This document shows, piece by piece, positions 48,019 to 60,832 of a stretch of DNA of 64,000 nucleotides. A program made the translations under genes and the position numbers. The notes under the pieces are model-generated. The model searched no databases, was not told the DNA's origin, and worked only from the letters and a program-made list of their open reading frames with translations. How positions within the stretch are numbered: the stretch's first letter is position 1; each line of letters begins with the position of its first letter. The stretch comes from Thermogemmata fonticola (lineage in GTDB: Bacteria; Planctomycetota; Planctomycetia; Gemmatales; Gemmataceae): contig NZ_JACEFB010000017.1 in the NCBI RefSeq assembly GCF_013694095.1, positions 1-64,000 on the forward strand, written 5' to 3'.

Positions 48019-48438
48019 TTAGCGGCCGGAGGGGAGCGCGTAGGGCAGGGTAGGTCCATTGGCGGGTTCGAGCATGAAGAAGTCACGCGGGCTGCGGGCG
48101 AAGGGATGGTGGGGGAACACCAGGGTGCCGTGCGGGCCGAAGGGGCCGTAGGCATGGGCGCTGCCATCGCAACCGGGGCCGCAGCGTCCGCCGGGTGGAA
48201 TGTGGAAGAACTTTTTCAAGTGGGGATGGAGGCCGTAGCGATCCGGTCCGCGTCCCGGCGGCAGATCACCCGCTCCCAGGAGCGTATTGGGGCCGCCGAT
48301 GACCACTGGCAAGCCGTTGACACCTCCGCGTCCTGCGGGTGGGGCAAACCCGCCGGGGTCCGCCGCTGCTGGCCCCGCTAAACCCCACGCCAGCAGAATC
48401 ACGCCCACATTGTGCATCCACCACGGCTTTCGGATCAT
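48019..48438 (-). CDS. Small exported Gly/Pro/His-rich protein
   Basis: The 139-residue product has a signal peptide (WWMHNVGVILLAWGLAG, cleavage after AAA) and a mature part of low complexity rich in Gly, Pro, His and Phe (GLHPHLKKFFHIPPGGRC, FGPHGTLVFPHHPFARSP). Such small secreted proteins are common in planctomycetes and have no assigned role. The ATG at 48438 is preferred because GGGAGGAAGGAAG precedes it. An upstream start would disrupt the signal peptide. Confidence 0.65.
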   Translation of the reverse strand: MIRKPWWMHNVGVILLAWGLAGPAAADPGGFAPPAGRGGVNGLPVVIGGPNTLLGAGDLPPGRGPDRYGLHPHLKKFFHIPPGGRCGPGCDGSAHAYGPFGPHGTLVFPHHPFARSPRDFFMLEPANGPTLPYALPSGR

Positions 48439-48564
48439 CGTCTTCCTTCCTCCCGGCAGGCCGTCCTCGTGCGGCCCCTTCCCTAGGGGCACCCATTCCT
48501 CAGGACAGGCATTTTTGCTATCGAACCGAAACCCCGCAGGGATTCACAAAAAAATTGAATCTGG

Positions 48565-48596
48565 TTGACAACCTGGCCGCGCGCAGGGATGATAAC
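48565..48596 (+). promoter_or_regulatory. Candidate promoter of the five-gene GTPase/Hsp70-like operon
   Basis: A perfect -35 TTGACA (48565-48570) is followed by TGATAA/GATAAC (48590-48596) at 19-20 bases, a slightly wide spacing. A second AT-rich element (TATCATAATT) lies just before the start at 48669. The -10 match is imperfect, so this is tentative. Confidence 0.45.
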
Positions 48597-48668
48597 AAAG
48601 CGGGAGCTAAGCGCAACCTGCTAGCGGTGTATCATAATTGAACCACAATTTGTTCATCACGAGCAACC

Positions 48669-50117
48669 ATGCCTACGCGCAGTCCTTACGAAGATGAGGA
48701 TGCTGCCCCCCCATTGTCGAGCCGCCCCTCCGCCCCGGCGAGTCCAGCAGGAGGGGGGTCGGCGCGTCCGCCGTCGGCTTCGGCGGGAGCGACGCCCTCC
48801 TCGTCTCCCCAGCCCGTTCCCTCACCGTCTCCCACACCCACACCCCTGCGCTTCGGTGTCTGCGGAGTCCTGGAAAAAATCGACGAATTGGAAACTGAAT
48901 TGGGACAGATCGGGATCATCCGCTACGTGACTTCCGGCGTGACCTACACTGCCCCGCCGGCCTCGGTGCAACCTTGCGCTTGGCTCAAGCATCCGCGCGA
49001 TCCCCAACGCTACGAGTGCCTCTGGGATGTCCGCAACTCCAACAACCTGCTCCAACTTCGCCAAGCGATCGAGCAGGCCGTCCAATCCGGGGAAATCCGG
49101 CAGGCCGACTCTCCCGTAGGCGATCGGCTGGACCGGGTCGTCTATCTGCTCGCCCAGCACATTGCCAGCCTGCACCGCGAAGGGTGGTCCGCAGGTTTGA
49201 TCTGCCCGGAGAACGTCTTTTACAAAGACGATGGCTCGGAGGTCTTTCTGGCCGACTTGGGCTTTTACTGGAAACCGGCGCGCGGGGAGCCGCCCTGGGA
49301 TGCGGAACCGGGCCGGCCCGAATGGATCGAGGCCAACTGGACTTACGCCTGGCTCTATTCCCGTCCGCCGCTTCAGCAGCAGTTCGCCTGTAGGAGCTTC
49401 GCCCCCCCAGTCTGGGAAAAACAACCCTTCACCCCGCCGACGCCTGCGGAAGACGTGCAGACCTTCGCCCGGCTCCTCTGGTGGTTGGTCGTCGGCAATG
49501 ACCGCGGCCCCCAAAGCCTTACCCCTTTCCTAAACCTGCTGCATGCCGCCATCGAGGGACAGGTGGCCGACATGGCCGATTTCCTCGCCCAGCTCGAACG
49601 ATGTCCCCCCAGCTCCCATTTCAACCGGGCGCGAGCGGTATCCTCCCGCGGACCGTCCCCGCTGGGGCGGCGGACCGTTCTCCTTCTCGGAGCTGCGGTC
49701 CTTGTCATCGGCGCCGCCGGATTGGCTTATTACCTTTTGAGTCGAACGCCGCCGGAGGGGGAGGACAGGAAGATAATTATCCCTTCGCCGGAGGAGTTTG
49801 CCCAAAAGCCTTACGAGGAACAAATGAAGTACTGGCGGGACACATACAATCCTCAATCCCCCCTCACGGATGAACAGAAGGCCACCCTGGCAAAACTACG
49901 CTGCAACACTCTCCAGAAAGTTGAAGAGAAGCACGACGAGCTTGTGGATAAAGCCTTCGATCATGCCGAGCGCTTCAACGTCGCTCGTGAGTTTAAGAAG
50001 CTGCTGGACGATGTCAAGTTGTTACGATCCAAGCCAGTGCATGACCCTGAAGTAGAAAAGAAGGAGCAGTTATGGCAGGAGATTATCGAACTGCGTTTGC
50101 TCGAGTTGGAAGCTTAG
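48669..50117 (+). CDS. Membrane-anchored pseudokinase, first gene of the GTPase/Hsp70-like operon
   Basis: The 482-residue product starts with a Ser/Pro-rich tail (1-60). A kinase-like domain follows (about 62-320): the catalytic-loop region reads LHREGWSAGLICPENVFY (about residue 168) and the metal site reads LADLGFYW (about 194). Compared with HRDxKxxN...DFG, the catalytic Asp and Lys are missing and DFG is DLG, and no glycine-rich loop is seen. A membrane helix (TVLLLGAAVLVIGAAGLAYYLL, about 335-357) precedes a charged, probably coiled-coil outer region. It is likely a scaffold or sensor. Its 3' end overlaps the next gene by 46 bases. Confidence 0.78.
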   Translation: MPTRSPYEDEDAAPPLSSRPSAPASPAGGGSARPPSASAGATPSSSPQPVPSPSPTPTPLRFGVCGVLEKIDELETELGQIGIIRYVTSGVTYTAPPASVQPCAWLKHPRDPQRYECLWDVRNSNNLLQLRQAIEQAVQSGEIRQADSPVGDRLDRVVYLLAQHIASLHREGWSAGLICPENVFYKDDGSEVFLADLGFYWKPARGEPPWDAEPGRPEWIEANWTYAWLYSRPPLQQQFACRSFAPPVWEKQPFTPPTPAEDVQTFARLLWWLVVGNDRGPQSLTPFLNLLHAAIEGQVADMADFLAQLERCPPSSHFNRARAVSSRGPSPLGRRTVLLLGAAVLVIGAAGLAYYLLSRTPPEGEDRKIIIPSPEEFAQKPYEEQMKYWRDTYNPQSPLTDEQKATLAKLRCNTLQKVEEKHDELVDKAFDHAERFNVAREFKKLLDDVKLLRSKPVHDPEVEKKEQLWQEIIELRLLELEA

Positions 50118-51391
50118 CCACGCTAGCCGTCTGCGTTCTGTTTTGTAGCCAAGCCCCGCGCCTGCTGTCCCAGGACATCCCCCAAGGACAGGGCAAGCGG
50201 ACGTTGTACCTCCTGCTGCGTATACCTTCCAATAAGCTTGATGATCCTAAACAGCAAGAAGATTTGATTTTGCAAACGATCAAAAGAGGGATCCAAAGAG
50301 CCAAGCTGAAAGTCCGAGAAGAGCCGATCATTCGCACTGTATCTCCCGCCTTTGTCGAGGAGATCCAAAGGCTTATCCCCGGCAGTGGTTGGCGAGTAGA
50401 GGCGGCGGACGACGCCCAAGCCGAAAAGAATGGAGCAAACGGTAATATTCAGGAAAAACTGAACATTAGTCTTCTTGATGCCAATAATAACATATACAAA
50501 ATCCAATTGCCATCGGACAAATATGTTCTCAAAGAACTCGATGTAGAATTTGCCAATGGCAAACTCCAAACCTTCAAATTGTCTTCTCCGAAAGACAAAC
50601 AACCGGTAGCACTGCGACCTAATTATCCTGGTTCTTACGTCCTACGTCTGCAAGGTAACGATGTGCCCCAAAAATGCACCGCAACAATCTTGAGTAGCAA
50701 AGGGGAACAGAAATTGAGTGCCGATTGGCCAGTCCAAAGCAGGGCTTACTTACTTATTCTCAAGGATTTTGAGGGGAATCTCGATGAGCTGTTCGCCGTG
50801 GTCCAAGACCCCGATTTGGTCGGTAACCCCATCCAGTTACTATCCCTCGATCAGCACCTATTTGCAGTTGCTTCCGTGGGCCTAGAAACGGAACCGACTT
50901 CTTTCATTCACGGAAATACGCTCACCGTGGTGGTACCCGATTTGAAAACACGCAGAGTCAAACATGTTTGGGTATATTTGCCCATTTCCGAGGAAAAGGT
51001 AGATGAGGAAATCGCACGCTGGCTGAAACATAGCAGCGTAAAGAATGTGTCGAAAGACCTGCCTCTGCTCATCGAGAAAAACCTGGTACGATTCGATCCC
51101 AATCAGAGGGCGATACTCGACAAGGATGTGATAAACCAGCCAAAGTGGTGGGAGACCGGACGCAACGGAAAAGATCATTTCACCCGAACCTTTGAGTTGA
51201 AAGACATTCCTGAACTGGTCAATCGCATCCCTAGCATGTGGATGCTCACAGTGTGGATCTTTGAAGATAGCGATGGGAATAAAGAATTGATCTTTATCAA
51301 GAATCGACAGGGAAAAACTGCTCCTTTGGAATCGCAGGAAATCATCACTTGGCGACAGTCCCTACCGAAACTCAAGACGAAACCTAAATAG
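50072..51391 (+). CDS. Exported protein of unknown fold, low GC relative to neighbours
   Basis: The 439-residue product has a hydrophobic leader (VGSLATLAVCVLFCSQAP) consistent with a signal peptide or anchor. Only beta-type motifs are seen (TLYLLLRIPSNKLDD, YKIQLPSDKYVLKELDVEFA, PGSYVLRLQGN, NTLTVVVPDLKTRRVKHVW). It may form repeated sandwich domains. AAGGAG lies just before the ATG, which sits inside the preceding gene, so coupling is likely. The codon composition is AT-richer than the flanking genes. No family is recognised, and its place in the operon suggests it works outside the cytoplasmic membrane with the pseudokinase. Confidence 0.72.
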   Translation: MAGDYRTAFARVGSLATLAVCVLFCSQAPRLLSQDIPQGQGKRTLYLLLRIPSNKLDDPKQQEDLILQTIKRGIQRAKLKVREEPIIRTVSPAFVEEIQRLIPGSGWRVEAADDAQAEKNGANGNIQEKLNISLLDANNNIYKIQLPSDKYVLKELDVEFANGKLQTFKLSSPKDKQPVALRPNYPGSYVLRLQGNDVPQKCTATILSSKGEQKLSADWPVQSRAYLLILKDFEGNLDELFAVVQDPDLVGNPIQLLSLDQHLFAVASVGLETEPTSFIHGNTLTVVVPDLKTRRVKHVWVYLPISEEKVDEEIARWLKHSSVKNVSKDLPLLIEKNLVRFDPNQRAILDKDVINQPKWWETGRNGKDHFTRTFELKDIPELVNRIPSMWMLTVWIFEDSDGNKELIFIKNRQGKTAPLESQEIITWRQSLPKLKTKPK

Positions 51392-51459
51392 TCACGGACC
51401 TCTGACTGAAAATAAAGAATAGCTTCCTCGATTTCGGACAGTGGGAGAGTGGATGAGCT

Positions 51460-53514
51460 ATGGCCATGAGCAGCGCGATACCTGCCCCGCTGACCCCCGC
51501 GGAATGCCCCTTGCTGGTCAAGTACGCCCAGGACCCGAATGCGGCGGCAGAGCTGGTGCAACGGTACAACCAGAGCGTGGAGCGCCTGCAGAATTTGCAA
51601 CGCGGGGAGTACGCCGCCCTTCTGGCGCGTGAGGATTTCGTCCAGGAGGTGGTGGGCCTGTTGGAAGACATCCGGCAGCGCCTGACCCGCACCAAGTACG
51701 TGGTCGGCTGCATCGGTATCACCCAAGCGGGCAAATCGACCGTGGTCAACAGCGTCTTGGGGGACGAAATCTGCAAGCCCGGCGCTATGGATGCCTGCTC
51801 GAGCCTGCCCAGCCGCATCGTCAAAGCCGACCACTTCGCCCTGGACCTGGAGTACCTCACGCCAAAACAGTTTGAACAACGCCTCCATCGCCTGTGCCAG
51901 GAAGCCCTGGGGTTGAGCACCGTCGGCGACCTGGACAAGGACATCGTGCCCTACCTGGACAAGGCGGAGTACTTCCGCAAGGAAGGGGTGGAACGCCCGC
52001 GCTTGCAGGACGATTTGAAGTATCTCAAAGGCTTGATCGAGGCATACAAGCGGCGGGGGAAACAGGTCCTGACCGATCCGCCGCGGCGGGAAAGCAATCT
52101 GCCGTATGAGCAGCGTTATGCCTACACGACGCACGGAGGCGGACGCGGCCAGGATGCGCTGCTTTTGCGCGAGGCCCGCTTCCGCGTTAAGAACTCCTAC
52201 ATCCCGGACGATCTGGAGTTGTGCGACCTGCCGGGTCTGGACAGCAAGCGGACCATCGACGATATCGTCACCTGGGAGTATCTCTCGCAACTGGATGGGG
52301 CCTTTCTTTTCGTCAATGCCGCCAGCAACTTCCTGACGGAAGGGATGCTCAAGGCCCTCTGCCAAGTCATGCAGGTTTTCGACCACAAGCTCACCGACCG
52401 GGCGTGGGTCATTTTCAACAAGATGGACACGCTAACGCCAGACAGTTTCCGGGATGGAGCCAACGAGAACATCTTTCACACGATCGAGCGCTTTTTGGAG
52501 CGGTCTCAGCTTCCCGCGTCCCAGGTTTGTTTCACCGCCAAGCGCATCTGGGAGAATGCTTTGAGGAACAAAGGGCGGGCCAATCTGGAGCAGGCCTGCG
52601 ACTTCGTGGGGCAGACACCGGAGCGGCCCATCCCCGCTTGCTGCCCGGAGAACATGCGGTCGGCCTGGGAGGAATTGCTCAAAGATGGCGGGATCAGCTA
52701 TCTCCGGCGGTTGATCTTCGAGCATGTGGCGCGTTCGGTGGCGGCGGAAGTACGCCAAGATGTGGAACGCAAACTCAAACGGTTCCACGAAAAGCTGGAA
52801 CAGCACCTTCAGGCGGAAGAGCTACGACGCCGCTTGGACCCCGAAGCGCTGCGCAATATCCAGACGTGCTACAGCGAGGTCATCCGCCTCCAACGCGATC
52901 TGCTGCTCCGCTGGCGCAACTACACGGCGGCGCGATCGGTGCTGGATACCTTCCGCGAACAGCAGCTCAAAAACATCATCGACTCTCTGGAACGCGAGAA
53001 TCTGGAATATAGCAGTCAAGACGAGATTGCTCGCCTGGTGGATACCAATGCCCGCCTCATCGAACGTCTGTTGAAACAATGCCTCCATACCGGTCTGGTT
53101 TTTCAGCGGGCTTACGAAGAGATTCGCACCCAATTGGAGAAGCTGCCCACGGTCCGCTGGGGGAACTCCCAGGAGACGTGCGAGAGTTGGTGGCAAAGGA
53201 TCAGCGACGAAGACCGTGCCCACTATGCAGAGTGGTTGGGCAATGGCCAGGACTTGAGGTTTATCACCTCCGAGCTGGAAAGCTGGCTCCAGGGCCGCTT
53301 GGACCTGCCGGGCGGTGCAGGCCTAACCTCCTCCGGCTTCCTGCGCGACCGCCAATCCCTGCGGTTGCTCCAGGAGCGGCTCGACAGCGTCTTCGACTAT
53401 CTCGATCAGAAGATTCGCTCCCGCCTCCGCTATCGCCTGCGGCAGTTGAGCAGCGAATTGTCCCTTCTGGTCGATGAACATAAAAGTGGCAGCGACGGCC
53501 CGCCCGCAAAATGA
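51460..53514 (+). CDS. Dynamin-like GTPase (SrfC-like)
   Basis: The 684-residue product has a GTPase domain with G1 GITQAGKST (about residues 85-93), G3 DLPGLD (about 256) and G4 NKMD (about 320). A long helical region with heptad-like charge patterns follows (about 400-680; RRLIFEHVARSVAAEVRQDV, LQERLDSVFDYLDQKIRSRL), which suits a dynamin-type stalk. There is no transmembrane helix. The domain plan and the Hsp70-like neighbour resemble SrfC of srfABC loci; that relation is inferred. Dynamin-like proteins usually remodel or tether membranes by GTP-driven assembly. The start may be ATG 51460 or 51466. Confidence 0.82.
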   Translation: MAMSSAIPAPLTPAECPLLVKYAQDPNAAAELVQRYNQSVERLQNLQRGEYAALLAREDFVQEVVGLLEDIRQRLTRTKYVVGCIGITQAGKSTVVNSVLGDEICKPGAMDACSSLPSRIVKADHFALDLEYLTPKQFEQRLHRLCQEALGLSTVGDLDKDIVPYLDKAEYFRKEGVERPRLQDDLKYLKGLIEAYKRRGKQVLTDPPRRESNLPYEQRYAYTTHGGGRGQDALLLREARFRVKNSYIPDDLELCDLPGLDSKRTIDDIVTWEYLSQLDGAFLFVNAASNFLTEGMLKALCQVMQVFDHKLTDRAWVIFNKMDTLTPDSFRDGANENIFHTIERFLERSQLPASQVCFTAKRIWENALRNKGRANLEQACDFVGQTPERPIPACCPENMRSAWEELLKDGGISYLRRLIFEHVARSVAAEVRQDVERKLKRFHEKLEQHLQAEELRRRLDPEALRNIQTCYSEVIRLQRDLLLRWRNYTAARSVLDTFREQQLKNIIDSLERENLEYSSQDEIARLVDTNARLIERLLKQCLHTGLVFQRAYEEIRTQLEKLPTVRWGNSQETCESWWQRISDEDRAHYAEWLGNGQDLRFITSELESWLQGRLDLPGGAGLTSSGFLRDRQSLRLLQERLDSVFDYLDQKIRSRLRYRLRQLSSELSLLVDEHKSGSDGPPAK

Positions 53515-53660
53515 CAGCACCGTCCCCAGGAGAGGCGAAGCATTCTCTGGCGGCGTGGGGTTGTCTCTTGCTGGCCATCCCGCAGGAAGGATCCGGCGGC
53601 TCTGCATACTAACGGCGATGGGAACTGATTGTCCGCATCCGTACCGAGGTGGGAACAGAC

Positions 53661-56357
53661 ATGTCGATCCGCGTGCCTCTGATCATGGAGAACATTTACA
53701 TCCGCACGGGGTTGTGTGCCCATACATTCCAATTGTCTGGCCACATACGCCCCAGTCAACCCTGGGACCAATTGGCTTCTTTTGGCGTGTTGATCTATTG
53801 GCCGCGGGAGTTCGGCTGGCTGCGGCTCTATGCTATGGCGGATGCCGGCAGCGGCGGGACGAATATCCCCTTCCAGGACAGTACGGCCGGTCTCGATAGG
53901 GTCTGCCAAGATCATGCCGCCCGGCGGGAACAGGTGGCGCCGGGGAAATTTCTGAGCAACTACCGCTTCCTCGCCTCGAGTCTGCCGCAAATGAACCGCG
54001 TGTTCCTCACAGTCGAGGTGGATACTGATGACGAGGGTTTCCACAACCAGGTTCAGCAGTTGGGAGCCGCCGACAAACAGGAGTACACCCATCCGATCCG
54101 GTTGTTGATTTTCGATGGCAAGCAGTTCGGGCGGTATATCCAGCAGGAAGGAGAGCTTTCGCTGATCCTCAAGCCCTGCACTCCCCTGCCGCGCTATGAA
54201 GGGGTGTTGACCATCGATTTGGGGAACACGAGCACCACGGCCGTGACGCAGGACTTGCGCGACCAGACCTACCTTTCCACCTCGCTCAAGACGGTGCCGT
54301 TGGAGGAAGGGCGGAGCAGCGGCGGCGAAGCCCAACCGCTGGTGTCGGCCGTGCGGATCGACCGGATCATCAGTTTTGGAGCCAACATTGAAGGGCAGCG
54401 CCGCTTTCCGAGCCTGCCGACAGATGAGAGGGCCGGGGCCATCCGTTTCGTGGCGGGGGAACGGGCGGTCACCAATTTGAGCGCCGGCGATGTGGGGGTG
54501 GTCCTGGGTGCCAAGCAGTTGTTGAGCACGCAGCCGTTGTTTCGTCCGGCGTCGTCCGAGGGGGCCGATTGGACGGCGATGCGGCAGGAGGAGCCGACGT
54601 TTTCCCTGCTGACGGAGCATGAACGCGCGCCAGGGGTGATCCAGCGGGAAACCATCGAGATGCTCCATCGGGTCCCCGGCGAGCTGCTCTTCAGCTACGT
54701 TTATCAGCAATTCCGCCGGGCCCAGAAAGGTTGGCCCGATGACGTGGTCCTGACCTATCCGACGACCTACAGCCCCCGCGAGTTGCTGCAACTCCAGAAA
54801 GCCGCGGCGCTAGGCTGGCTGCGGGCGATGGGGCTGCCCCAGAGCGACCAAAACGCCTCCCTTGACACAGGCGGGGATGGCACGTTGCAAGAGTTGGGCA
54901 GCCGCGTCCGGCAGTGGTTGCAGAACCCCGACACCCCTTGCCCCTTGATCGGCCTAGCGTTGGATGAAGCGACGGCGGCGGCCTTCTACTATCTCTATCG
55001 GCGCGTCTTCGACCTGCATGGCGGGCTGGTCCGTTTCCGCTATCTCTATCCCAACGGCATCCACATGCTGCTGGTGGATGTTGGGGGTGGGACGACGGAT
55101 ATTGCTTTGGTTCGCGCTGTATCTCCGGTCCAGGAACAGCATAATTTGTATGTGGAAATCCTCAACCGTAGCGGTTTGCGCCGCTTCGGCGGCGATGCTA
55201 TGACCCGCGAGATTTGCCGCCTGCTCAAGGCCAAAGTGCAAGGGCTCATCCGGCGTGTGCGGCAAATGCCGAATACTCCGCCGCCTCTGCCCGCGCAGCT
55301 TCCGGCAGGTCAAGCCCGCCAAATCGTGGAAGGCTACATCACTCGCCTGCGGGATGCCGATCCTAAGGATGAACTGGTTCCTACCCGTTTCGACCCCAAC
55401 AGAATGGACGAGGACAACCTCCAGCGGCGGACCTGCTTCCACGGCCTCTGGCGCCTGGCCGAAGAAATCAAGCGCCGGCTCAGCGAATCCGCTAAGGATA
55501 GCCGCGGACGCAGCGTACGCCTGCGGGATTTGGACCCCTCCTTGCTCCGAGCCGATACATCCCCCCTCATGGCAGGCATACTCCGCAACATTCCGCAACA
55601 GGTCCAAAATACCCTGATCAACCAGATTGCTGACACCACGATCTCCCGGAGCGAAGTCGATCCCCTCCTGCGCGACCATTTGGAACGATTGGTCCAGCAA
55701 TGCAATCGCTTGATCATGGACCAAATGGACAAGGACCTGGAAACGGGAGTGGGAATCGACTGGGTGATCCTCTCCGGCAACGGCTCGCTCTATCCCCTGT
55801 GCCGGGAGGTTTTGGAAGAGAGGCTCTGCGTGCCGTATGTCCAGCAGAAACTGTACTGCGAGGAGCAAAATCTGAAGTATGCTGTGGCGAAGGGAGCGAC
55901 CCTGGCCCGGATGGTAGAGCGCGTGCCCCGCACGTTGCAGATTCGCTTCAATAGCCGCTTGTGCGATCTGCTGCCCTTCGACGTCGGTTATCACGACATG
56001 CGGACCGGTCGACACCGCGTGCTGTTTACCGCTATGACCAGTTACCGGCAACTGGAGTCTCAGGCCCAGGAAGTCGATTTGCGTTCCGTCACGAGCGGGG
56101 AGGCAGGTTGGGAGGGGGGGCAACAACTGGGGCGTGTTTTCAACCTGGAACGCCGGTTTCCGGGTGAGGAGGAGCATCGGTGGGAGCCGTACCTGTCGTA
56201 TGAGTTCAAGGACCCCCTCTCCGGGCGGATCGAGATTAGTTATGTTTCCGCGGAGGGGTTTTTCCGGGTGATGGACAGAGAAACGGGGGCCATCGGCCAG
56301 ATGCGCGTCATGACTGCGGAGGATAGCCGTCCCGTGGCGATGGGGGGAGACATTTGA
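53661..56357 (+). CDS. Hsp70/actin-superfamily ATPase (SrfB-like)
   Basis: The 898-residue product shows the five-motif plan of the actin/Hsp70 ATPase fold: phosphate-1 GVLTIDLGNTSTTAVTQD (about residue 182), a connect motif ALDEATAAAFYYLYR (about 431; compare EPTAAALAY in Hsp70), phosphate-2 MLLVDVGGGTTDIALV (about 469) and adenosine motif WVILSGNGSLYPLCREVL (about 700). The N-terminal 180 residues and the region between motifs are larger than in DnaK, as in SrfB proteins. No substrate-binding domain of DnaK type is obvious. The ATG at 53661 is preferred, with GAGGTGGG about 8 bases upstream. Confidence 0.85.
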   Translation: MSIRVPLIMENIYIRTGLCAHTFQLSGHIRPSQPWDQLASFGVLIYWPREFGWLRLYAMADAGSGGTNIPFQDSTAGLDRVCQDHAARREQVAPGKFLSNYRFLASSLPQMNRVFLTVEVDTDDEGFHNQVQQLGAADKQEYTHPIRLLIFDGKQFGRYIQQEGELSLILKPCTPLPRYEGVLTIDLGNTSTTAVTQDLRDQTYLSTSLKTVPLEEGRSSGGEAQPLVSAVRIDRIISFGANIEGQRRFPSLPTDERAGAIRFVAGERAVTNLSAGDVGVVLGAKQLLSTQPLFRPASSEGADWTAMRQEEPTFSLLTEHERAPGVIQRETIEMLHRVPGELLFSYVYQQFRRAQKGWPDDVVLTYPTTYSPRELLQLQKAAALGWLRAMGLPQSDQNASLDTGGDGTLQELGSRVRQWLQNPDTPCPLIGLALDEATAAAFYYLYRRVFDLHGGLVRFRYLYPNGIHMLLVDVGGGTTDIALVRAVSPVQEQHNLYVEILNRSGLRRFGGDAMTREICRLLKAKVQGLIRRVRQMPNTPPPLPAQLPAGQARQIVEGYITRLRDADPKDELVPTRFDPNRMDEDNLQRRTCFHGLWRLAEEIKRRLSESAKDSRGRSVRLRDLDPSLLRADTSPLMAGILRNIPQQVQNTLINQIADTTISRSEVDPLLRDHLERLVQQCNRLIMDQMDKDLETGVGIDWVILSGNGSLYPLCREVLEERLCVPYVQQKLYCEEQNLKYAVAKGATLARMVERVPRTLQIRFNSRLCDLLPFDVGYHDMRTGRHRVLFTAMTSYRQLESQAQEVDLRSVTSGEAGWEGGQQLGRVFNLERRFPGEEEHRWEPYLSYEFKDPLSGRIEISYVSAEGFFRVMDRETGAIGQMRVMTAEDSRPVAMGGDI

Positions 56358-56391
56358 GCAAAGACTCGGCAGGTTGGTGGGAAGAGCCACA

Positions 56392-58179
56392 ATGCGTGAC
56401 GCAAGTTGTGCCGGTGAACTGGCGGTGCTGCTTCGGGAGATGGCGCGGTTCGCAGTCCGCTTGGCCGATGTGGGTGCCCACTGGCCGGGGGAGTCGGCCG
56501 CCCGACGCTTCCTGCAACTGCTGCCGGAGCGGGAGAACGCGCCGACGGATGTCTGGGGTTGGACCCGCTTGCTGTTGCAATGGCAGCAATGGCGTCCGCC
56601 GCATTTTTTGCGCCGGCTGCTGACGCCGGAACCGGAGGAACTGGAACGGTGGCGGCGGGTCTGCGAGCAATCCAGCGGTGCCCCCGGAGCACGCCGGCGA
56701 GGAACCCTTTCCTGGGGCCGGTGGTTTGGGACTGCTGAGGAAGAGGAAGATACCCGCCTCCTTTTTGCCCGCTTGGCTGAGTGCCTGGCCGCCTGGCGTC
56801 CCGCCAGCCGCGAACGCCGTCGAGCCTTGGAAGAACTCCTGCGCTACGGCCTGGAAGTCGAAAACATCCTCGCCCGCTTGCGGGAACGGGATCAATGGGT
56901 TCCCCTCATCCTGGTGGAGTTGGCGGAGCACGTCGTGGAAACGGCGGAGCGCTGGCGCTGCGGCATGCCGCTGCCGCAGGGACCCTGGCTTACCCTGCTG
57001 GAAGAATCGGGCAGCCCCCCGCCCAGTCATTCCGAGGAAAACAAAAAACTCTGGCGCGGCTGGCTGAGTAATGGAGGAACGCCCTGGTTCGATCAGCTCG
57101 CACAATTGGCGCAGCACGACTCCGCCGCCGCCGCTTGGCTCCAAGCCGTGTGCCAGGGTTTGGCCGTCCAGTGCTATCCCTGCGGCAATGGCTCCAGCTT
57201 CTGGCAGTGGCCCCCTCAGGCGGAGAGTCCCCCCGGTAAAGTCGAGTGCCACGCGGGCGGTTCCGTCGGCCGCATCATCCGCGTTGAACGTTACGCCACC
57301 GATCCCGCTCTTGTCATCTGCACCTGGGAAGCTCCGCAAGAACTGATCGATTATTACGAACAGACAAAGGCCTTGCTGCAACAGGCCCGCGAAGAGGGTC
57401 TGCATGCCCTCGCCGATGCCTGCAAGCGGGAGTTGTCGCGCCTGCTAGCTGAGGGCCAGTTGCCGCTGCGGGAGCATGTGGTTCGCTTGATCGACAGTGT
57501 GGATTCCCCCGAAGCCGCCCCATCGGTCCGGACGGATTGGCCCCCCGTGTGCGTGCGCCAATGGTTGTCTTTCCTCGGATGGAAGGTCTTTCCCCTGTCC
57601 GAGGGCTATCCCCCTGATGCGGAGGAATACCCGCAGCGCTATCAGTTCCGTCCGGTGTTTAAGAAGGATGTGCCGGTGAAAACGGTCCTCGGCGTGCGAG
57701 TGTTCGGCCTGGAGGATGCAAACGGGGAGATCGTCCGCCCCGCGGAGTTGCAAGTGTCCGCCGGTCCGCCGCCGGTGGGCTTGAATGAGCTGGAAGCGGT
57801 CGCTCGGCAAACCCCTGGCGAGATCGGCCAGCGCCTCCAGGAGTCACTGCGCGCCTTCCGCCTGGCGGGCTTGCAGGGTTGCCTGGAACAACAAGTCGTG
57901 GATTTGTTCAAGCTGTATTGGGAACTCCGGGCGCAGTGGATGCAGAGCGATCCGCAAGTGGCCCAGCAGTTCGGGGAACATTTGGCGGGGATGCTTCAGG
58001 AAGGCTTCGGGATCACCACGTTCGAGCCAACTACCGATCGGGATTTTCCGCAAGGGTGGCTAACCTATCCGCCAGGAACTCGCCTGACGAAGGGGCGCGT
58101 AACCCGCATCCTGCGTCCCGGTCTGCGCTATCAGGCGGACGGGAGCCTGCGCCTGCCAGCGTATGTGGAAGCGGAGTAG
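56392..58179 (+). CDS. Helical protein with a GrpE-like C-terminal domain
   Basis: The 595-residue product is mostly helical and Trp/Arg-rich in its first 350 residues (AVLLREMARFAVRLADVG, LRYGLEVENILARLRE, LVELAEHVVETAERW). The last 130 residues resemble GrpE: a helix pair (LRAFRLAGLQGCLEQQVVDL, AQQFGEHLAGMLQEGFGITT), then FEPTTDRDFPQ and TKGRVTRILRPG...DGSLRLPAYVEAE (about 567-595), like the GrpE end G-x-V-x-x-V-x-RPGY...LRPA-x-V-x-V. Its place directly after an Hsp70-like ATPase gene supports a nucleotide-exchange role, but this is an inference from pattern and order. The stop region is duplicated downstream. Confidence 0.65.
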   Translation: MRDASCAGELAVLLREMARFAVRLADVGAHWPGESAARRFLQLLPERENAPTDVWGWTRLLLQWQQWRPPHFLRRLLTPEPEELERWRRVCEQSSGAPGARRRGTLSWGRWFGTAEEEEDTRLLFARLAECLAAWRPASRERRRALEELLRYGLEVENILARLRERDQWVPLILVELAEHVVETAERWRCGMPLPQGPWLTLLEESGSPPPSHSEENKKLWRGWLSNGGTPWFDQLAQLAQHDSAAAAWLQAVCQGLAVQCYPCGNGSSFWQWPPQAESPPGKVECHAGGSVGRIIRVERYATDPALVICTWEAPQELIDYYEQTKALLQQAREEGLHALADACKRELSRLLAEGQLPLREHVVRLIDSVDSPEAAPSVRTDWPPVCVRQWLSFLGWKVFPLSEGYPPDAEEYPQRYQFRPVFKKDVPVKTVLGVRVFGLEDANGEIVRPAELQVSAGPPPVGLNELEAVARQTPGEIGQRLQESLRAFRLAGLQGCLEQQVVDLFKLYWELRAQWMQSDPQVAQQFGEHLAGMLQEGFGITTFEPTTDRDFPQGWLTYPPGTRLTKGRVTRILRPGLRYQADGSLRLPAYVEAE

Positions 58180-58245
58180 GGTTGAGCCGGAGTAGGGTTG
58201 AGCCGGCCGCTGCCGGCGATGTGGAAGCGGAGTAAGGTTGGGCCG
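58161..58245 (+). repeat. Operon-end duplication across the stop codon
   Basis: The last codons and stop of the GrpE-like gene (58162-58189, with TAG at 58177) recur at 58218-58245 with minor changes and TAA as the stop. A shorter copy of GGAGTAGGGTTGAGCCGG lies between them, near 58188-58206. The segment TGAGCCGGAGT at 58183 is the same core as the 14-base array at 20687. Confidence 0.8.
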
Positions 58246-58383
58246 ACTACCGGCACGGCGGATGTGCTGGGCCAGCTTCCTACGTACTGGCAGGACGTAT
58301 CTGGGGCCAGACGAGACGGGTTCCAGCCGCTCGGCCCTGGGGCTTGCGATTGGCCCTGGGGTTTGCGCTGGGGCTTTCCCGCC

Positions 58384-58614
58384 TCACTCCGTCTTACCGT
58401 GCCGGCAGACCTCCACCCGGTTGATCAGGCGGCGGCGGCCAATCGAGGGCCGAAGCGACTCCTGCGCCAACTGCTTCATGTAGTAACTCGTGACCTTTCC
58501 TAGGATGATCACTTCCTGGTCGTTGACCACGACCTGCAACCGGCGAAGTTGGGGGAGAGGACTGTTCTGGAGAATGTCGGCCGGCTCCATGCGAGGGGTG
58601 ACAGTCGCGTTCAT
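58384..58614 (-). CDS. BON-like domain protein
   Basis: The 76-residue product is almost entirely one BON-like domain: RRLQVVVNDQEVIILGKVTS (about residues 24-43) followed by YYMKQLAQESLRP and the last strand LINRVEVC. BON domains bind phospholipid or other membrane components. There is no signal peptide, so export is not shown. TAGGAGTG lies about 8 bases before the ATG. It lies convergently beyond the GTPase/Hsp70-like operon. Confidence 0.72.
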   Translation of the reverse strand: MNATVTPRMEPADILQNSPLPQLRRLQVVVNDQEVIILGKVTSYYMKQLAQESLRPSIGRRRLINRVEVCRHGKTE

Positions 58615-59002: not shown

Positions 59003-60832
59003 GTGAAAACCGAGGGTTTGGTGTTTTTCCGCTTCTTATCCTGGGGTGATGCACCAAGGCGGATGCTGGCGGCGAGCCTCTGCCAGCATGGCGGGGGTTG
59101 GCTGGCGGCCGCCACGCTGTTGGCCGTTGGCGGCCCGCTGTTTGTCTGCATGCCGCCGTGGACCGATGTGACGCTCTACGACCTGGCGGCGCGGAATGTG
59201 CTGCGCGGCGGCGTCCATTACCGGGATGTGTTTGATACCAACTTTCCGGGCATGGTCTGGTGTTTCGCTCTGCTCCGTTGGTTGGTTGGTTCCAGCTCCG
59301 AATGGCTCCGCCTCGCTGATCTGGTGGTGATCGGCAGCGCGGTGGCCGCCTTGGCGGTGGGGTTGAAGCGCGGGGGAGTGCCGCCCTCCCGGCTGGGTTG
59401 GTTCGTGGCGGCGTGTGCCCTCTTTTATCTGTTCCTCAGCGAATTCAATCACGTGCAGCGGGATGGGTGGATGCTGCTGCCGGCCCTATTGGCCCTGGAG
59501 GTGCGGTGGCGGCGGTGGCGGCTCGGCCACGACCTGTCAGGGCAGTGTTCCTTCCGGCGGCATAGGCTGGCGGTGGGTGAAGGCATGCTCTGGGGGGTCG
59601 GAGTGTGGCTCAAGCCGCATGTCAGCATCCCGGCGCTGGCTGTGGTGGGAGCCGGTGTCGTACTGCTTTATCGCCGCGGCGGATGGCGTATCCTGGCCGG
59701 GGATAGCGCCGCTGTGCTGGCCGGGGGGCTACTCTGCGGTGCAGCCGGGATCGCCTGGCTAATGGCTACCGGAGCCTGGCCGTACTTCCTGGACATCCTG
59801 ACCCGTTGGGTGCCCGGTTATCTGAGCTACTGGCCGGAGGGCCTCGCCTTTCGGGCTGGTTACCTTTTCCGGTGCTTTGGTCCCTGGAGTGCCTTGCATG
59901 CCTTGGCCCTGCCAATCGCGGCTTACTGGCTGTATCGCCTGATCGCCATCCGCGCACTTCCTGGTACCAGTCTGGCTCCTGGTTCCTCAACGTCCATGAA
60001 AAGGCTAAGCGATGATAGCGGTGATCAAGGTGAAGGGCCGATCGGGATAACCCTCCTGGCGGCCTTATATGTTGGGTGGTTGCTGCAAGTGGTGGTCGTG
60101 CAAAAGCCGTTCGATTACGCCCATGTTCCCCCAGTGTTCCTGGCCCTCGCCCTGCTGACGGTCGGGGGCTGGAATGCCAGCAAGCTCCTGGTGCTGGGAG
60201 TGCTCGCCGGTTCGCTGCTGCTGCAAGTACCGCCGGTGTCTGCGGCATGGCAGCGGATGCAACAATTCCCCCTGCTCGAACGCTGGACGGCCCATCCGCT
60301 TTTGGACCGAGAGCGCACCGGCCTTTGGCTCCGTTGCTGGACAGAAGGCAGCACGCCGGAATTGCGCAACCGCTTGGGGCTGTACATCGATTGCCATTGC
60401 GCCACGAATTGGGAGGACCTGGCTCAAGTCGCGGACTATTTGCGGCAAGTGCACCCGCCGCTCCAGGATGGCGAGCTGAATTGCTGGCATGACGGCACGC
60501 ATCCCCTGTACCTCCTCCTGAATCTGGAGCCGGCGACGCGGTACCTGCACTATGGCACGGCCTTCTCCATCCGCGCACGAGTGGGGGAGATCGCCGAGGC
60601 GGTGGCCTGGAGCCGCCAGCGCTACGTGGTGAGCGATCTCTACCCTGTTCTCCCGGACATTTCTCCTGACCAATTACCGGTAGCGGACGGCCAGGAACTC
60701 CACTTGCCCCGGGACTTTCCCGCACCCTACCGCCAGCTCTTTCCCTGGAATCAGCCGCTGGTTTTCCGCTGGGGCCGGTATTGCGTCCACAAGGTGGAAG
60801 GTCCGCTCGGCGTGATCGACATCCACCCTTGA
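59003..60832 (+). CDS. Multi-pass membrane protein, GT-C glycosyltransferase-like
   Basis: The 609-residue product has about ten hydrophobic segments. The first external loop reads WTDVTLYDLAARNVLRGGVHYRDVFDTNFPGMVW (residues 53-86, only parts quoted as motif: DVTLYDLAARN and YRDVFDTNFPG), the pattern of GT-C enzymes that use polyprenyl-phosphate sugars (D/E-rich loop and n-PPG motif). A 190-residue soluble C-terminal part (about 420-609) follows. The donor and acceptor are unknown. The start is GTG 59003, with a G-rich stretch before it. Confidence 0.72.
   Translation: MKTEGLVFFRFLSWGDAPRRMLAASLCQHGGGWLAAATLLAVGGPLFVCMPPWTDVTLYDLAARNVLRGGVHYRDVFDTNFPGMVWCFALLRWLVGSSSEWLRLADLVVIGSAVAALAVGLKRGGVPPSRLGWFVAACALFYLFLSEFNHVQRDGWMLLPALLALEVRWRRWRLGHDLSGQCSFRRHRLAVGEGMLWGVGVWLKPHVSIPALAVVGAGVVLLYRRGGWRILAGDSAAVLAGGLLCGAAGIAWLMATGAWPYFLDILTRWVPGYLSYWPEGLAFRAGYLFRCFGPWSALHALALPIAAYWLYRLIAIRALPGTSLAPGSSTSMKRLSDDSGDQGEGPIGITLLAALYVGWLLQVVVVQKPFDYAHVPPVFLALALLTVGGWNASKLLVLGVLAGSLLLQVPPVSAAWQRMQQFPLLERWTAHPLLDRERTGLWLRCWTEGSTPELRNRLGLYIDCHCATNWEDLAQVADYLRQVHPPLQDGELNCWHDGTHPLYLLLNLEPATRYLHYGTAFSIRARVGEIAEAVAWSRQRYVVSDLYPVLPDISPDQLPVADGQELHLPRDFPAPYRQLFPWNQPLVFRWGRYCVHKVEGPLGVIDIHP

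Follow-up and report, generated by a model that had tools for sequence, protein, structure and literature searches.

An accessory five-gene cassette of Thermogemmata fonticola combining a pseudokinase, an exported protein and a dynamin-like GTPase with Hsp70-like and GrpE-like proteins: a candidate membrane machine

Introduction

What could a bacterium achieve with a dynamin-like GTPase encoded next to a large Hsp70-like ATPase and a GrpE-like protein, in a unit that starts with a degenerate kinase and an exported protein? In eukaryotes Hsp70 regulates membrane coats, as in clathrin uncoating, and the planctomycete phylum is noted for its complex membranes. An operon in which a bacterial dynamin comes with an Hsp70 of its own and a repeat-containing GrpE would offer a compact, testable system for studying how chaperones control membrane remodelling. 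The open-access papers searched describe no dynamin-Hsp70-GrpE unit. The locus analysed here lies within the window, a stretch of 64,000 nucleotides of Thermogemmata fonticola (contig NZ_JACEFB010000017.1, forward strand).

Gene organization

An earlier note on this DNA described five co-directional open reading frames with short or overlapping junctions. This holds for all five, which are found on the + strand within a segment that a congener lacks:

48669..50117, + strand: gene 1, membrane-anchored pseudokinase, 482 aa (profile matches to Pkinase-type relatives, hydropathy)
50072..51391, + strand: gene 2, predicted exported protein, 439 aa (hydropathy; no known family)
51460..53514, + strand: gene 3, dynamin-like GTPase, 684 aa (Pfam Dynamin_N, PDB, PADLOC)
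53661..56357, + strand: gene 4, Hsp70-like ATPase (profile alignment to the whole DnaK ATPase domain)
56374..58179, + strand: gene 5, GrpE-like protein with tandem GrpE C-terminal (beta) domains (family profile against canonical GrpE)
48364..58399, no strand: accessory segment absent in congener G001, which has ~550 bases instead

A 46-nt overlap joins genes 1 and 2, and the remaining junctions measure 16 to 146 bases. None of the opposite-strand open reading frames of at least 150 aa is a better gene candidate than the five on the + strand, which are preferred because their products are the ones conserved elsewhere. The open frame of gene 4 begins at GTG 53649, but its fifth residue, M5, is the invariant start in a six-member alignment and ATG 53661 is therefore the likely initiation codon. 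The motifs that the earlier note had listed are present as well: GITQAGKS, DLPG and NKMD in gene 3, and IDLGNTSTTAV, VDVGGGTTDI and LSGNGS in gene 4. The G+C content falls to 0.52 over genes 2-3, compared with about 0.63 around them, a dip that may point to transfer.

Conservation and distribution

A survey of planctomycete genomes, as proposed in the earlier note, shows that the order kinase-like, exported, dynamin, Hsp70-like and GrpE-like gene recurs in other genomes with protein identities of 21-50%. All five genes are kept at seven loci, and several further loci are cut by contig ends. The cassettes sit in unlinked genomic contexts and their neighbouring genes are not common to different cassettes. 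Conservation of the order at such identities, while the flanking genes are not shared, excludes a chance arrangement.

Gene 3 was detected in five of the 41 genomes searched among the window's relatives, the window's own genome included. In L006, L007, L009 and the Gemmataceae contig L021 it is accompanied by the other four genes; L008, which belongs to a different family of the same class, has genes 1-4 and an unrelated protein at the place of gene 5. The complete order is found again in L217, L218, L220 and L221, and up to the contig end in L222 and L223 (the latter being the same contig as L021). Occurrences were counted with the gene 2 profile, that gene being the most specific component: the cassette is present in 11 of the 102 genomes of the order and in 8 of its 44 genera, in one family only. 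One genome outside the order also has it, without gene 5. Genome G395 carries two divergent copies, and L053, which has genes 2-4, is more loosely related.

Congener G001 has flanking genes collinear with those of the window, ~10 kb (48364-58399) being replaced by ~550 bases between them, and the cassette is therefore an accessory unit. Gain in the window lineage or loss in the congener fits this comparison equally. Neither direct repeats of at least 10 bases nor a mobile-element signature is found at the edges of the accessory segment. Likewise missing at the same place in G001 is the gene for a membrane protein (59003-60832) that follows the cassette. This congener is devoid of the cassette, yet it carries a different dynamin-Hsp70 pair (L054 4117-11001) whose Hsp70-like protein has 1300 aa.

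The pseudokinase and the exported protein

The gene 1 protein has an N-terminal Pro-rich stretch, a kinase-like domain, a membrane helix placed by hydropathy at aa 332-350 and an extramembrane C-terminal coil; one membrane helix is present in most gene 1 proteins across cassettes. Its profile weakly matches kinase-like genes located upstream of related dynamin/Hsp70 pairs, and these score as Pfam Pkinase with E 1e-18 to 1e-20. The kinase alignment localizes two sites:

49194..49214, + strand: degenerate catalytic loop GLICPEN in place of HRDxKPxN, without the catalytic Asp and without the loop Lys
49254..49262, + strand: DLG, retained at the position of DFG

The HRD Asp expected of an active kinase is absent from the 11 cassette kinases aligned and from the three kinase-like relatives, all of which keep residues of DLG, DFG or DAG type. 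The degenerate kinase with a membrane helix perceived in the earlier note is thus borne out on both counts. Such Pfam Pkinase genes upstream of dynamin-Hsp70 pairs (L067 13612-14466, L068 13565-14698 and L225 4517-5488) have HGN, HGC and HGA instead of HRD. Judging from this missing Asp, pseudokinases may be general to dynamin-Hsp70 loci.

Gene 2 codes for a protein with a signal-peptide-like hydrophobic segment at its N terminus (hydropathy peak at aa 7-25), so that its earlier description as an exported protein is retained as a prediction. The segment is found in most gene 2 proteins, and the relatives keep AQ(E/D/V) after it. The protein has no Pfam match and no PDB match.

The dynamin-like GTPase

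Gene 3 matches Pfam Dynamin_N with E 1.7e-7 and 31.8 bits, over the cut-off of 27. Together with its P-loop, DxPG and NKxD motifs this places it among bacterial dynamins, in agreement with the earlier assignment. Its nearest solved structures are the Slr0869 chains (E 2e-11 in the PDB), which we take to be SynDLP, followed by mitofusins. The PADLOC models LeoA (E 9e-8) and LeoBC (E 8e-6) are also matched. In profile comparisons the gene 3 family is closer to the dynamins of related pairs (E 3.6e-32) than to other planctomycete dynamins (E 1.5e-15). Hydropathy reveals no membrane helix in gene 3, and no membrane-binding element was identified in it.

The Hsp70-like ATPase

The gene 4 protein carries an N-terminal extension of about 180 aa. 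The alignment of its cassette family to DnaK spans the entire ATPase domain (E 4e-17, prob 98.8), and the profile retrieves DnaK and SSB1 from the PDB. Residues D190, K289, E440, D477 and T482, which we equate with DnaK D8, K70, E171, D194 and T199 on the basis of the profile alignment, cover all five Hsp70 catalytic positions and do not vary among ten cassettes. In this protein the nucleotide-binding domain by which the Hsp70 superfamily is recognized is complete and has the catalytic D, K, E, D and T, in keeping with the Hsp70-like ATPase of the earlier note, and the invariance of these residues makes it likely an active ATPase. A profile search detected no substrate-binding beta domain in the gene 4 cassette family; in related pairs this domain gives a weak profile match (E 1.9e-4, prob 48). 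The C terminus may be beta-rich, a prediction at very low confidence. AlphaFold models of genes 5 and 4, built from two-sequence alignments, had mean pLDDT values of 40 and 36, respectively, and were unusable.

The gene 4 profile also retrieves large Hsp70-like relatives across the phylum. Of 23 further planctomycete loci, about 16 have a dynamin, identified by its match to the gene 3 profile, immediately upstream of the gene for the Hsp70-like protein. In the tree the cassette Hsp70s group together (SH-aLRT 90), adjoined by L053.

The GrpE-like protein with repeated domains

The window protein of gene 5 taken alone belongs to no Pfam family, being below Pfam detection. When the profile of its eight-member family is compared with canonical planctomycete GrpE, 108 columns align (E 2.6e-8, prob 95), which upholds the earlier proposal of a GrpE-like partner; seven unrelated alignments gave E 0.26 or worse. 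At the level of the family profile the GrpE hallmarks, a helical segment and a C-terminal beta domain, are both found. The beta domain occurs twice in the window protein:

57664..57762, + strand: GrpE beta-domain copy 1, aa 431-463 (profile)
58090..58173, + strand: GrpE beta-domain copy 2, about aa 573-600 (match aa 573-588, extended by eye to 600)

As a check on the tandem arrangement, the canonical GrpE model matches three cassette proteins with E 1e-4 to 6e-4, the best E among 20 shuffles per protein being 0.021. At dynamin-Hsp70 loci related to the cassette, the gene at the same downstream position in L227 matches Pfam GrpE in two stretches (E 1.3e-11), and the downstream genes of L059 and L066 match it with E 2e-4 and 6e-4. 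Counted partly by eye, the C-terminal copies number two in the window, four in L227 and about five or six in L059 and L058. Such multi-copy proteins are encoded downstream of dynamin-Hsp70 pairs at L059 10719-13364, L058 6578-14044 and L227 13645-15639. Canonical GrpE functions as a dimer, each chain having a single C-terminal domain; proteins with tandem copies could bind several Hsp70s.

A proposed membrane machine and its alternatives

The reading favoured here, with a probability of about 0.5, is that the cassette encodes an accessory membrane machine in which a pseudokinase and its secreted partner gate a dynamin cycled by an Hsp70 and a multivalent GrpE. It is preferred because the gene order is conserved in unrelated contexts, because dynamin and Hsp70 genes adjoin at most of the further loci, and because GrpE-like genes follow several related pairs and kinase genes precede some of them. 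The invariant Hsp70 catalytic residues, the mostly conserved helix of gene 1 and signal-like segment of gene 2, the sporadic distribution and the absence from the same site in the congener argue in the same direction. The cassette proteins would form a single complex located at the membrane. The transmembrane pseudokinase, coupled to the secreted gene 2 protein, would anchor and gate the cytoplasmic dynamin-like GTPase. The Hsp70-like protein would act on this dynamin, loading, remodelling or dismantling its assembly at the membrane through ATP hydrolysis, and the tandem-domain GrpE-like protein would recharge the Hsp70-like protein. The machine would presumably respond to envelope damage or conflict rather than serve in housekeeping. 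Counting against this mechanism, a substrate-binding domain was not detected in gene 4, nor a membrane-binding element in gene 3, and no J-domain gene was identified.

A conflict function is quite possible in its own right: the complex would sense damage or an invader, phage or competing bacterium, at the envelope, and the dynamin would remodel or seal the membrane, or kill the cell, under Hsp70/GrpE control. The patchy occurrence of the cassette, present or absent as a whole block, the two divergent copies of G395 and the LeoA/LeoBC matches of gene 3 are in line with such a role. A further element comes from four of the closest cassettes (L021, L222, L217 and L218), where the gene directly upstream of gene 1 codes for a protein that combines a beta-helix with a DO-GTPase2 domain (E 7e-8 to 1e-5). 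DO-GTPases have been described as cores of predicted conflict systems, some of them with HSP70 and GrpE (PMC7159879), and this neighbour links the four cassettes to such systems. The window copy has no DO-GTPase neighbour, the cassette contains no toxin-like or variable effector gene, its edges bear no mobile-element signature, and its neighbours, as scanned with Pfam, include no recognised defence gene; all but the first of these speak against a conflict system. The additional gene, located at L222 5213-7288, L217 2946-5084 and L218 12174-14120, forms a six-gene unit with the cassette. Its product has a zinc-ribbon-like cysteine pattern in L222, and a homologue is located elsewhere in two other cassette genomes.

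More tentatively, the proposed machine might be a bacterial counterpart of chaperone-driven coat dismantling, with a dedicated Hsp70 and a tandem-domain GrpE that holds several Hsp70s cycling a membrane dynamin coat, and the transmembrane pseudokinase in control.

It is unlikely that the cassette is an ordinary envelope housekeeping module supplying a specialised chaperone to a membrane-remodelling dynamin. Constant components, intact catalytic sites and the spread of dynamin-Hsp70 pairs across the phylum would suit this role, but the five-gene form occurs in only about a tenth of the order's genomes and a congener lives without it.

Relation to SrfABC

The earlier note had also recognised in genes 3 and 4 the SrfC/SrfB arrangement of srfABC loci. 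What survives is a remote profile similarity of both proteins, gene 4 family to bona fide SrfB (E 3.5e-10, prob 96.7) and gene 3 family to SrfC (E 2.5e-6). DnaK fits the gene 4 family better than SrfB does, with the restriction that the DnaK alignment is the deeper one and the two E values are not strictly comparable; SrfB and DnaK profiles compare with E 3e-5. Gene 4 scores 19.3 bits against SrfB (PF07520), in the ATPase core only and below the curated cut-off of 27.1. The gene 3 window protein has no match to SrfC Virul_Fac (PF10139), the best of six family members reaching E 0.017, and none of 294 planctomycete genomes has a Virul_Fac match over the cut-off. In the srfABC loci used as yardstick (Methylobacterium, Enterobacter sp. 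638, Cereibacter and Rahnella plasmids) the hsp gene precedes the dynamin gene and SrfA is present, whereas the dynamin precedes the Hsp70 in the window. Neither gene 1 nor gene 2 is similar to the SrfA profile, and nothing in the cassette resembles SrfA. SrfB lies on a very long branch of the Hsp70 tree with weakly supported placement.

With scores under the Pfam cut-offs, a reversed order and no SrfA, the identification of the cassette as SrfABC was rejected, and even a distant form of that system is very unlikely. The similarity of both genes, distant when set against nearer families, marks the dynamin-Hsp70 pair and SrfC/SrfB as remote relatives at the profile level, the cassette not being a member. 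The comparison also suggests that SrfB and SrfC, whose annotation is limited to virulence factors, are themselves an Hsp70-like/GTPase pair. In two proteobacteria (L120 12146-16366 and L122 11698-15006) srfABC is followed by genes for a membrane protein, a vWA protein and an ABC transporter, which suggests a longer srf operon.

Comparison with known systems

SrfABC of Proteobacteria shares with the cassette a GTPase gene beside a gene for a large Hsp70/actin-fold ATPase, but lacks the pseudokinase, the exported protein and the GrpE-like protein. The DO-GTPase (GAP1-N2) systems likewise bring together GTPase, Hsp70 and GrpE genes and are membrane-associated (PMC7159879); the core GTPase of the window is a dynamin instead of a DO-GTPase, and neither DO-GTPase nor GAP1 domains are matched by its five proteins in Pfam. 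LeoABC is approached through the matches of gene 3, although the cassette has a single dynamin rather than three. To our knowledge LeoABC has no Hsp70 or GrpE. The cassette resembles the DnaK-GrpE pair in the whole Hsp70 ATPase domain with its catalytic residues and in the GrpE-like C-terminal domain. It departs from that pair by the large N-terminal extension of gene 4, in which the substrate-binding domain is undetected, by the repeated GrpE domains and by a dedicated dynamin neighbour.
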